From: a virus
Length of the DNA: 24,935 bases
Virus record (IMG/VR): IMGVR_UViG_3300013101_000087
Coordinates: 1-24,935 of that record
Strand: one strand, 5' to 3'
The position numbers and the translations under genes were made by a program. This document shows positions 9,264 to 20,076 of this stretch, in pieces (positions within the stretch are counted from its first letter, which is position 1; each line of letters begins with the position of its first letter). Below the pieces are notes generated by a model. The model was not told the DNA's origin, did no database searches, and saw nothing but the letters and a program-made list of their open reading frames with translations.

Positions 9264-10664
9264 ATGAGAGTTTATAAAGAGAAACAATGTGTATTATGCA
9301 GTAAAGGGTATATACCTACAAGCCCCAAACAAAAGTTTTGTATTATATGTAAAGATGTTGCTGCAAAAACAGCACAAAAAGAACATGATAAGAAACGTAA
9401 TAGAAAAAAGTATCTTAAGATATATACAAGAACATGTCCAGTATGTGAGGAAGTGTTTACTACTCATTATGGTAGTAAAACATATTGTGGTGCTAAAGAG
9501 TGTGAAATTATAAGAAAAAGAATTAACAGAGTCAAAGTAGATAAGCGGAGATCTATACTAAGGTCTAAAAAGGCTAAGCTAGAAAAATATAGACAACAAG
9601 GCCAAAAATTAAAAGAAATAAAACGTGCAGTAGCACTGGAAAACTACAAATTAATTTCAGCCAAAAAGTACAAAAATACACATTATAGTGAATTAGTTCT
9701 TTTATGTCCAGAAGGTCATTTATACACTACAACCTTTCATAATTTTAGTGATAACAATAATAGATGTGTTACTTGTTACTCTCAAAACAATTATGTATCT
9801 AAACCAGAACAACTAGTAAGAACATTTATAGAGGAAGAGTTTACTAATTTACCTGTTATATATAATGACCGTTCTGTGGTAAGGCCTAAAGAACTAGACT
9901 TTTATTTTCCAGATAATAATTTAGCTATAGAGGTCTGTGGTCTTTATTGGCATGGTGAACTAGTAGCAGGAAAACCTAGAGATTACCACTACAATAAAAT
10001 GCAACAATGTTTTGCTAAAGGTGTGCGCCTCATAACAGTATTTGAAGACGAGTTATTAAATCAGAAAGAGGTAGTATTTTCCCGTATAAGACAAGCATTA
10101 GGCCGACCTACTAGGAGAGTTTTTGCCAGGAAATGTATAGTATGTGAAATAAGTTCCAAAGAGGCCAACTCCTTTTATAGAACTAATCATATACAGGGGG
10201 CATCTACAGCTATGATCAGGTATGGGTTGTTCTACCAAGATGAACTACTGTGTGTAGGTAGCCTAGGTAAATTTGTTAGGAAACATACAGCTACTTCTAC
10301 TACTTTAGAACTTAAACGTTTTTGTACGCTTCCTGGAGTATCTGTAGTTGGTGGGGTAGGCAAAATTTTCAAACGCATGACTTTATACGCAGCAGACCAT
10401 GGTTACACACATATTAAATCTTATTGTGATATGAGGTACGCTAATATATTTAATCCTGTATATGAGGTTATAGGTTTTACCTTGGATAGTTTTACTAAGT
10501 ATACGCCTCATTACTTTAAGTCTGGCAAAAGATATAGAAATTTCTCGTTACGTAAAACTCCAGAAGAACGTTTAACTAATAAGACTGAGTGGCAGCTACG
10601 ACAAGACCAAGGATATGATAGAATATGGGACTGCGGGCATAGAACTTATCTGTATACTTTATAA
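9264..10664 (+). CDS. Vsr/EDxHD-type homing endonuclease with extra C-terminal domain
   Basis: Free-standing selfish nuclease, 466 aa. Residues 1-80 hold cysteine pairs forming two or three zinc fingers (CVLC, CIIC, CPVC); a basic helix follows (~85-125). Another zinc knuckle comes at 148-171 (CPEGH, CVTC). The nuclease core at ~178-275 resembles the Vsr-like EDxHD homing endonucleases typified by I-Bth0305I: KELDFYFPDNNLAIEVCGLYWH, then KGVRLITVFEDEL. Residues ~295-430 form a separate domain (LELKRFCTLPGVSVVGGVGKI, IKSYCDMRY) that recurs in such phage proteins and may have a GNAT-like fold; that fold is my inference. The protein ends with RIWDCGHRTYLY. It follows the capsid terminator and may have its own promoter. 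Its codons are AT-rich, unlike the capsid gene before it. The nuclease call is sound; the target is unknown. Confidence 0.85.
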   Translation: MRVYKEKQCVLCSKGYIPTSPKQKFCIICKDVAAKTAQKEHDKKRNRKKYLKIYTRTCPVCEEVFTTHYGSKTYCGAKECEIIRKRINRVKVDKRRSILRSKKAKLEKYRQQGQKLKEIKRAVALENYKLISAKKYKNTHYSELVLLCPEGHLYTTTFHNFSDNNNRCVTCYSQNNYVSKPEQLVRTFIEEEFTNLPVIYNDRSVVRPKELDFYFPDNNLAIEVCGLYWHGELVAGKPRDYHYNKMQQCFAKGVRLITVFEDELLNQKEVVFSRIRQALGRPTRRVFARKCIVCEISSKEANSFYRTNHIQGASTAMIRYGLFYQDELLCVGSLGKFVRKHTATSTTLELKRFCTLPGVSVVGGVGKIFKRMTLYAADHGYTHIKSYCDMRYANIFNPVYEVIGFTLDSFTKYTPHYFKSGKRYRNFSLRKTPEERLTNKTEWQLRQDQGYDRIWDCGHRTYLYTL

Positions 10665-10720
10665 TAAACTAACTCCTTTATAATATGAGTATTACGACAA
10701 TGTTTATAAAATAGGTGAAT

Positions 10721-11044
10721 ATGTTAGAAACTGTACTTTTTATATTATTTGTGACTCTGTCTGTAGAAGCTACTACAGAACTTGTGAGCAAGTCTGAATT
10801 TTTTTCTCCTATTAGGGCGTGGTTTTTTAAGCGCAGGGCCCGTAGGTTATTTAAGTTTATACACAATATCCTAGATTGCCCTTATTGTTTGTCTGTGTGG
10901 GTGAGCTGTTTTTTTATTGGTTTATTTTATATAATTATATTTAAAGATATGTATTTTTATTTATACCTACCAGCAGTGTTGGCGACACATAGATTAGCAA
11001 ATATACTGCATTTTGTTGTGGATAGGGTTAGAGGACCTATATGA
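10721..11044 (+). CDS. DUF1360-like small membrane protein
   Basis: A 107-aa protein of unknown function. An N-terminal hydrophobic helix (LETVLFILFVTLSVEATTEL) and a second hydrophobic region around 60-90 predict membrane association. The segments TELVSKSEFFSPIRAWF and LDCPYCLSVWV match the DUF1360 family pattern (a CPYC motif before a membrane helix), a family found in phages and in bacteria. I prefer ATG 10721; an in-frame GTG at 10715 lies within the AGGTGA ribosome site. The stop overlaps the HNH gene start in an ATGA junction, so the two are co-translated. A membrane protein among late genes could act in lysis timing or superinfection exclusion, but nothing here shows that. Confidence 0.75.
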   Translation: MLETVLFILFVTLSVEATTELVSKSEFFSPIRAWFFKRRARRLFKFIHNILDCPYCLSVWVSCFFIGLFYIIIFKDMYFYLYLPAVLATHRLANILHFVVDRVRGPI

Positions 11045-11889
11045 AGATATGCTGGGATAATTTGGAAGGCTTTAAACTTACCAGAAATGGTATTTTTCTA
11101 AAGAATGGTAGAGCTTCCTACGTGTATAAGGATAAATGTGTTAGTTGCGGCGAGCCTTACTTAACACTTAAAAATAAACAAAGTAACTTTTGTGGTAAGT
11201 CTTGTGCACATAAAGGCAGACAGTCTTGGTTAGGTAAGAAGCACACTGCCCTTACCATAGCTAAAATGTCTAAATCAGCTTATATTAGGTCTAAAAATAA
11301 AGAGTATAGTACTAAGTTATCTACCGCACAAACTGGCCACAAAAACCATAACTGGAAAGGTGGTGTGTCTAAAAAAGGTTTGCCTTTATACGACACTTAT
11401 AATAAGTCACTTTGGCCAGAAGAGGTGACATACAGTACAGTTGGTGATCTAAAACTTTTAAATGTAAAATGTACCAAATGTGGTGAGTGGTTTATACCCA
11501 CTACTGATGAAGTACAGCGCAGATTAAAATACTTAAATGAAGCTGTAACTTCCGAGAATAGATTTTATTGCTCTAGCACTTGTAAAGATACTTGTGTTAT
11601 ATATAGGCAGATTAAGTACCCAAAATATTTTAGTACACATAAGGAATTAGCTTATACATCAAGTGAGCTTAAAGTATGGGCAAAAGAAGTGCTGTATAGA
11701 GGAACTAACACTTGTGCTTTTTGTGGGGAATATGCAAGTATAGCTCATCATATAGAGCCTAAGAAACTGGCACCTTATAAAGCACTAGATCCTGATAATG
11801 GTTTAGCTTGTTGTGAAACATGTCATTTTAAGTATGGCCATAGCAATGAGTGTTCAACAGGTAGTTTATCACATGTAGTTTGTAAGTAA
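11041..11889 (+). CDS. HNH homing endonuclease
   Basis: Probable homing endonuclease of 282 aa. It has an N-terminal zinc finger (CVSCGEPY to FCGKSC), a NUMOD3-like DNA-binding helix pair (HKGRQSWLGKKHTALTIAKM) and the phrase KNHNWKGGVSKKG, common in phage HNH proteins. A second cysteine cluster lies at 144-185. The HNH motif is at the C-terminus: CAFC at 225-228, AHHIEPKK with H236 and H237, N253 in DPDNGLACCETCH, and H262. All motif residues are present, so it looks active. It overlaps the DUF1360-like gene by four bases. With the 9264 gene it makes two homing-type nucleases flanking one small gene, directly after the capsid gene. Confidence 0.88.
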   Translation: MKICWDNLEGFKLTRNGIFLKNGRASYVYKDKCVSCGEPYLTLKNKQSNFCGKSCAHKGRQSWLGKKHTALTIAKMSKSAYIRSKNKEYSTKLSTAQTGHKNHNWKGGVSKKGLPLYDTYNKSLWPEEVTYSTVGDLKLLNVKCTKCGEWFIPTTDEVQRRLKYLNEAVTSENRFYCSSTCKDTCVIYRQIKYPKYFSTHKELAYTSSELKVWAKEVLYRGTNTCAFCGEYASIAHHIEPKKLAPYKALDPDNGLACCETCHFKYGHSNECSTGSLSHVVCK

Positions 11890-18720: not shown

Positions 18721-19311
18721 ATGAAAAGACGAATAAGCGAAAAGACCAAGCGTAAGTATAAAAAAAGAATTAATAGCGTAATTAGAGATCTTGGAAGGCC
18801 CATTGAAGTATTTAAACAACCGGCCAAATACGAGTGCTTTAATTGTTACTATGATAAACTTACAGCAACTAGCACTAATGAATGTAAATGGACAGCTGTT
18901 GAAACTATAGCTAAGCAGCAGGAATACGCAGCTGCTGGTGGTGTTGGGTTTAGATATAAATACTTCACCAGGGGAAGATGCCCAATTTGTAAAGGGCAAG
19001 GCTTCTTATCTACTGTAAGAAAAGTATGGATTGATTGTAAAGTTACTTGGGCCCCTTCTACTAATGGCACAGATTTAACATACACTGCTGCCGGAGTTGA
19101 AGGAAGTACTATAGTGGAAATTAAAGCAGACCCAAAGCACCACAGAACATTTAACAATTGCAGTTCTATTAGGGTGGATGGTATAGAGTGTAAAATATCT
19201 GAGATACCAATACTTAGAGGGATAGGTAATAAATCAGTTATGGTTATAACGGCATTCACCACAGACAAGCCCGGTATAGATAGAGATGAAATTATTAAAG
19301 ACTATACCTAA
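18721..19311 (+). CDS. Zinc-finger neck protein, possible head closure
   Basis: A 196-aa protein with a strongly basic N-terminus (MKRRISEKTKRKYKKR). It has a zinc-binding arrangement: YECFNCYYDK at ~39-48 pairs with GRCPICKGQGFL at ~85-96, similar to the DnaJ-type CxxCxGxG knuckle. A beta-rich domain follows (~100-190). Proteins with this two-part zinc site recur among neck genes of large siphoviruses as far as I know, and a head-closure role fits the position between the adaptor-like gene and the next neck genes. No Shine-Dalgarno site is obvious before ATG 18721, and the previous stop is only 15 bases upstream, so translation may depend on coupling. The zinc site is clear; the function is inferred. 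Confidence 0.7.
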   Translation: MKRRISEKTKRKYKKRINSVIRDLGRPIEVFKQPAKYECFNCYYDKLTATSTNECKWTAVETIAKQQEYAAAGGVGFRYKYFTRGRCPICKGQGFLSTVRKVWIDCKVTWAPSTNGTDLTYTAAGVEGSTIVEIKADPKHHRTFNNCSSIRVDGIECKISEIPILRGIGNKSVMVITAFTTDKPGIDRDEIIKDYT

Positions 19312-19326
19312 TATAGGAGAAGTGTG

Positions 19327-19416
19327 ATGATTAAAAAATTAAGTTTACTGCTTTTAGCAAGTTTATGTTTAGTGGAAACAGCTTTCGCGGGACCAGTTAT
19401 TATAAGGTTTAACTAA
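19327..19416 (+). CDS. 29-aa signal-peptide micro-ORF
   Basis: A very short ORF with strong coding signs. AGGAGA at 19315-19320 lies 6 nt before ATG 19327, better than the sites of both neighbouring neck genes. The product is nearly all signal peptide: a basic start (MIKK), a hydrophobic core (LSLLLLASLCLV) and a typical signal peptidase I site AFA before GP, leaving an eight-residue mature peptide GPVIIRFN. A lipoprotein box is unlikely, because leucine precedes the only cysteine. The stop lies 6 bases before the next gene, whose own ribosome site is poor, so it may also act as a translational leader. It could be an exported peptide, a tiny membrane protein or a remnant. Export of the peptide is inference. 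Confidence 0.65.
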   Translation: MIKKLSLLLLASLCLVETAFAGPVIIRFN

Positions 19417-19422
19417 CGTCGT

Positions 19423-20076
19423 ATGAGTAAGGTAAGTGTAAAAGTAGCCAAAAATTTAGAGAAGAATTTAGGCTCAGCTATAAGTGATGTATTTTTAGAT
19501 AAGCTGGATGATCTTATAGACTCCTATATGGACACTTACGATGAAGAGTTAGCTAGTGTTATAACGGATAAAGAGAGTTTAGCTAATCCTGATTATTTTT
19601 ATGATGACTATAAAGAAGCCCTAGAAGACTTTGATTATGTAGAAGAAGAGAATGATGGCTTAATTATTAGGATACCTTCCGAAGACACTTTCGACTTTGG
19701 GGGAAGATTAAATTTTATAGCTTTACTAGTTCACGGTACTGCAGGTAAGTACTTGGAGTTACCTGAAGCAGAGCATGACCAACTAGTAAATAGTAAAGAT
19801 TTAGATAAAAACTTAAGGAAAAGTATACGAAGACTACCTCCTTTTTTTGACTCTAATACTCCTAAAGAGCTGAGATTTTATTTATTGCAAACTACTAGGG
19901 GCGGTTTATATAAAACTGTTGAAAATATATTAGGTAGAAAGCTAGTAGTTTTCCCTTTCTCTAATACATCTTCTATAGACTTGTTTGGGCCAAGCATTAA
20001 ATTTTTTGAGGAAAACATATACAATATGTTCGAGGAAGCTATAGATAACACTAATAAACGTGTGAGAGGAGTGTAA
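19423..20076 (+). CDS. Putative neck protein
   Basis: A 217-aa acidic, mixed helical and beta protein. It begins with a helix (SVKVAKNLEKNLGSAISDVF) and a very acidic stretch (residues ~35-80). A central part, FIALLVHGTAGKYLELPEAE (~97-116), follows, then helices at the end (FFEENIYNMFEEAIDNTNKR). The pattern of an N-terminal helix, a region around HGT and a C-terminal helix, together with position after the zinc-finger neck gene, suggests a neck or HK97 gp10-like tail-completion protein, but I do not see a decisive motif. No good Shine-Dalgarno site precedes ATG 19423; the nearest AAGG is about 15 nt away, inside the micro-ORF. Coupling to the micro-ORF is the simplest explanation. Confidence 0.7.
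   Translation: MSKVSVKVAKNLEKNLGSAISDVFLDKLDDLIDSYMDTYDEELASVITDKESLANPDYFYDDYKEALEDFDYVEEENDGLIIRIPSEDTFDFGGRLNFIALLVHGTAGKYLELPEAEHDQLVNSKDLDKNLRKSIRRLPPFFDSNTPKELRFYLLQTTRGGLYKTVENILGRKLVVFPFSNTSSIDLFGPSIKFFEENIYNMFEEAIDNTNKRVRGV

Follow-up and report, generated by a model that had tools for sequence, protein, structure and literature searches.

Does a reading frame of 29 codons that specifies little beyond a signal peptide, lodged between two virion-module genes of a phage, encode an overlooked exported peptide, or did it come about in another way? The frame lies in a 24,935-base IMG/VR fragment (the window, by which we mean the whole stretch of DNA analysed). The original prediction proposed that the phage either exports an eight-residue peptide or uses the frame as a leader that, by being translated, drives the next gene. 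The ORF itself had been described accurately: its coordinates, the AGGAGA motif 6 bases upstream of the start codon, the MIKK start, the hydrophobic core, the AFA motif and the GPVIIRFN end were all confirmed in the sequence. The features of the locus are as follows.

18721-19311, plus strand: gene 196, upstream, encoding a Cys-rich protein of 196 residues that is conserved in all relatives and has homologues in about 60 IMG/VR records
19294-19311, plus strand: end of gene 196, ATT AAA GAC TAT ACC TAA; relatives have ATT AAG GAx, holding AAGGA, a site weakened here
19315-19320, plus strand: Shine-Dalgarno (SD) sequence of the small ORF, AGGAGA, 6 nt before the ATG, -7.3 kcal/mol; AGGAGAA at the same position in the nearest relative
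19327-19416, plus strand: small ORF, 29 codons, MIKKLSLLLLASLCLVETAFAGPVIIRFN; proposed to be what an in-frame deletion left of a secreted-protein gene
19327-19389, plus strand: signal-peptide-like part of the small ORF as read from the sequence, MIKKLSLLLLASLCLVETAFA; its counterpart in the 122-residue protein of the relative is MIKNLSLFIISLFILACASYSSA
19393-19400, plus strand: putative deletion junction, CCAGTTAT
19396-19417, plus strand: residual 3' end of the small ORF, VIIRFN with the stop codon and the following C; 20 of 22 bases match the end of the 122-codon ORF
19417-19422, plus strand: spacer from the small-ORF stop to the ATG of gene 217, 6 bases, as in the nearest relative
19423-20076, plus strand: gene 217, downstream, encoding 217 residues, with no good SD in front of it; its translation is proposed to be coupled to that of the small ORF

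The small ORF and a longer counterpart in the nearest relative

Pairing of the AGGAGA motif with the anti-SD sequence falls within the normal range for the 24.9-kb window. By hydropathy and motif, the product carries a Sec signal peptide with a signal peptidase I site (basic n-region, hydrophobic core and A-x-A); the lipobox [LVI][ASTVIG][GAS]C is absent, as LASLC places Leu before Cys.

The nearest relative containing this region (IMGVR_UViG_3300040801_002513; G003, also L040) has at the same locus an ORF of 122 codons (L040:4972-5340), MIKNLSLFIISLFILACASYSSAAPVNV...GLPTPTVIIKFN. The two ORFs have the same SD, an MIK-LSL start and a signal-peptide layout in common, and the end of the longer one, TPTVIIKFN, matches that of the small ORF; what the longer one has in addition is a middle of 91 codons. 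The start regions match at 27 of 35 bases (maximum in 20,000 simulations, 22) and the stop regions at 21 of 25 (maximum, 15, in as many simulations). Both ends of the small ORF are homologous to the 122-codon ORF, co-linear and in frame with it at the same locus, as a deletion derivative should be. The window ORF is fitted best by removal of 273 nt (91 codons) from the longer ORF, with breakpoints at a direct repeat of four bases, GTAA, which is short enough to be due to chance.

Because of the homology at both ends, a chance origin of the small ORF is unlikely. The real window contains one SD-preceded ORF of signal-peptide type and 22-60 residues, and 2 of 300 windows simulated with a first-order Markov model (0.7%) were comparable, under criteria that were chosen after the ORF had been seen; chance was rejected on both grounds.

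The missing middle may have been a domain. When the structure of the 122-residue protein was predicted without an alignment, the model, of low confidence (mean pLDDT 66.5), showed an N-terminal helix and then, in the 91-codon middle, a beta-sandwich, with the retained VIIKF as its last strand. Fold matches of the model were to generic sandwich domains only (best Z 7.2, rmsd 3.1 over 92 residues); as they were generic and reached Z 7.2 at most, we assign the protein to no family. Pfam and 31 other related records held no match for it, searches of phages and plasmids gave none that was significant, and PDB sequence matches to kelch-type designs covered only 27-38 residues and were taken as chance. 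Besides the protein itself, an IMG/VR search returned one weak partial match (L080, 41% over 37 residues), and phrog_4024, whose function is not known, also matched weakly. Since the only homologue of the small ORF is a full-length, secreted-type protein of 122 residues ending in TVIIKFN, its GPVIIRFN end is, from alignment and model, probably a scar plus the last strand of a lost domain and not an evolved peptide.

The locus across related records

About 60 related records, some of them near duplicates, were gathered with the terminase, the 529-residue protein and the 196-residue protein. Alignments of the 529- and 196-residue proteins gave this wide set; the 217- or 287-residue protein alone as query returned none or two relatives. 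The gene order 196-217-287-529 is constant throughout the relatives checked, and no ORF intervenes between genes 196 and 217 in the 58 other records that have both neighbours. The spacing there is tight: the stop of gene 196 lies at -20 to +3 nt from the start of gene 217 in 50 of 60 records, with an exact overlap of the TAATG type in 39, counts that include near duplicates.

The original prediction had made conservation of the frame and of the AGGAGA site in relatives a decisive check, and the outcome was divided: the frame is absent in 58 of 59 relatives, and the nearest relative shares with the window the SD, the start and stop codons and, at both ends, the frame, with a product four times longer. 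Because the 58 other records have no ORF between genes 196 and 217, the gene of the small ORF is, as judged by this comparison, an accessory insertion confined to one small lineage of two records, in one of which it has apparently been gutted.

Insertions were also seen elsewhere in the module. Between genes 217 and 287, one relative carries a putative repeat-containing homing endonuclease gene (L155:3358-4419) and another a gene coding for a 184-residue protein (L130:3697-4251), which indicates that the module takes insertions repeatedly. Among the head genes of the window, NUMOD3 and HNH proteins and a Cys-rich protein of 466 residues (954-1415, 9264-10664 and 11041-11889) are probable homing endonucleases, positioned upstream of the terminase gene and downstream of the capsid gene, and a small DUF1360 membrane protein is encoded at 10715-11044.

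The label of neck genes given earlier to the neighbours was drawn from position only, and proteins 196, 217, 287 and 529 had no informative database or family match. The 217-residue family is a virion-module protein without a PHROG, conserved in about 60 phage records; for its very confident model (alignment A6; pLDDT 93, pTM 0.86) Foldseek gave no match among PDB structures (best E 0.93), and the best VIA match reached Z 4.7 at 9.5 A rmsd. In the 196-residue family the Cys pairs (C..C and CP.C) are invariant and probably form a metal site. The only hint of a host group comes from L180 (JAUVDT010000035.1), a contig that was binned in a Gammaproteobacteria MAG and has the 196-217-287-529 module; it may be a misbinned phage.

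Ribosome supply to gene 217

Gene 217 of the relatives has its ribosome site within the last codons of gene 196, where those for Lys and Asp or Glu spell AAGGA. In the terminal K-D/E-Y motif, the Lys codon is AAG in 31 of 40 relatives, compared with 28% AAG in gene 196 outside this motif. In both carriers of the insertion, the window and its nearest relative, this codon is AAA and the embedded site is weakened; the start of gene 217 lies 112 bases downstream of the 196 stop in the window and 394 bases downstream in the relative. The SD energy of gene 217 is -3.7 kcal/mol in the window, which bears out the earlier remark that the gene at 19423 lacks a good ribosome site, and -0.4 kcal/mol in the nearest relative, against a median of -5.9 kcal/mol in the relatives. 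Some relatives also have a weak SD for gene 217 (L137, for example, -0.9), and drift may therefore account for its weakening in the carriers. The region around the gene 217 start showed no special RNA structure.

In each carrier the inserted ORF has a good SD and ends only 6 nt upstream of the gene 217 start, and gene 217 has no independent good SD, as would be expected if the ORF were a coupling leader. Termination-reinitiation is common in bacteria (PMC10666635; also Huber et al. 2019, PMC6728339) and depends strongly on distance: in three E. coli pairs, a distance of +2 nt cost 5-70% of re-initiation, and coupling was nearly lost at about 20 nt (PMC10666635). Given that cost at +2 nt, the 6-nt gap of the carriers suits coupling less well than an overlap would. 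The coupling proposed here shares with the coupled pairs of Huber et al. 2019 and 2023 (PMC6728339, PMC10666635) co-directed ORFs, a very short distance from stop to start and a downstream start that lacks a good SD; it differs in that the upstream partner would be a 29-codon remnant and that the spacing is +6 nt and not an overlap. The TAATG overlaps at 196/217 in most other phages of the group resemble those of coupled pairs. The leader proposal of the original prediction is supported indirectly: genes 196 and 217 normally stand stop to start, the embedded SD is weakened in both carriers and the ORF ends 6 nt upstream, which together suggest that the remnant may now act mainly as a translational relay for gene 217.

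On balance, although by little, we favour an account in which the small ORF is a deletion remnant of a secreted-protein gene that was kept as a relay to gene 217. In the lineage of the window phage and its nearest relative, an accessory gene encoding a signal peptide and a beta-sandwich of about 90 residues would have become inserted between two genes of the virion module, and this insertion would have separated gene 217 from the ribosome site within the end of gene 196. In the window phage, an in-frame deletion of 273 bases would then have brought the last six residues directly behind the signal peptide. Ribosomes recruited by AGGAGA would read the 29 codons, terminate 6 bases short of the gene 217 ATG and re-initiate there. 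Since gene 217 would have lost its embedded site and would depend on translation of the small ORF, selection may have retained the SD, the frame and the stop of the remnant. That the signal-peptide ORF became, after the loss of its cargo, a dedicated relay (or a small membrane peptide) needed by the virion gene is a part of this account that we put forward only tentatively.

Weighing the readings of the small ORF

The small ORF might instead be a plain decaying remnant, inactivated by the deletion, not yet lost and without function, with gene 217 initiating alone. Phages of this group can do without the gene, and its signal-peptide part has diverged faster (46% amino acid identity between the window and the nearest relative) than genes 196 (77%), 287 (80%) and 529 (84%), and somewhat more than gene 217 (56%). 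However, the SD, the ATG, the frame and the stop-to-start spacing are all intact, and as gene 217 lacks a good SD, its ribosomes must come from somewhere; we consider simple decay rather unlikely.

Slightly less probable still is a functional micropeptide, a product of 29 residues made late that would insert in the inner membrane or release GPVIIRFN outside the cytoplasm, with proposed roles in exclusion, membrane stress or signalling. An intact SD and frame, a plausible signal peptidase site and, in the signal-peptide part, a dN (0.54) lower than dS (0.91) when the window is compared with its nearest relative, albeit on only 16 synonymous sites, are consistent with such a peptide. The ribosome exit tunnel is about as long as a chain of 29 residues, and ordinary Sec targeting of the product should therefore be poor. 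Signal-like small proteins can be membrane active, as is the 38-residue TimP of Salmonella (PMC7667032), with which the small ORF shares a hydrophobic N-terminus resembling a signal sequence; an sRNA represses TimP, whose Leu at -3 is unfavourable for cleavage, whereas the small ORF has a good A-F-A cleavage site and is known from a single phage record.

The comparison of loci tells against an exported peptide of eight residues. Neither the roughly 60 related records nor an IMG/VR scan for PVII(K/R)FN followed by a stop yielded a second copy of the micro-ORF, two degenerate pattern scans for other carriers of the C-terminus in IMG/VR found only unrelated ORFs apart from that of the nearest relative, and no other record has a GPVIIRF micro-ORF at the locus. 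A 29-codon form with purifying selection on the mature peptide was likewise not found, as no other record has the form. The supposed mature octapeptide corresponds to the C-terminal end of the larger protein in the nearest relative, and this half of the original prediction is not supported. The small ORF resembles the arbitrium AimP propeptides of Bacillus phages in being a short phage ORF in which a signal peptide precedes a C-terminal peptide of 6 to 8 residues, but it sits inside a virion module and not beside a receptor gene. Arbitrium-like signalling is considered unlikely, as there was no AimR match (NF038310) in the window, itself a fragment, or in the two records searched, G003 and G004.

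The account of a deletion remnant requires that the long form came first. Because only one relative carries the ORF, the direction of change is argued from plausibility, a signal peptide normally having a cargo; all 58 other records lack any ORF at the site, so that they do not fix the polarity. With this basis, we regard a deletion in the window phage as quite likely compared with an insertion in the relative. The reverse order, in which a micro-ORF came first and the relative acquired a beta-sandwich domain inside it, needs the same number of events; Ig-like domains move between phage genes, and the GC content of the middle of the longer ORF (42%, against 32-39% around it) would also suit an inserted domain. 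It nevertheless requires that the ancestor encoded a bare signal peptide, and the retained VIIKF is predicted to be the last strand of the very sandwich that would have been gained; we judge it improbable. An assembly artefact is most improbable, whether 273 bases dropped out of the single metagenomic contig through assembler collapse or the contig stands for a minor deletion variant, as the gene of the relative has no long repeat to cause collapse (only GTAA) and the two records also differ at many sites around the junction.

The small ORF shows that an apparent new secreted phage peptide can be the product of a deletion, and it provides a concrete test for catalogues of phage micro-ORFs, namely to compare the locus in relatives before a function is called. 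If the relay to gene 217 is real, a coupled pair of virion genes would have survived first an insertion and then a deletion with its ribosome traffic intact, and a gene would have been turned into a leader by deletion.
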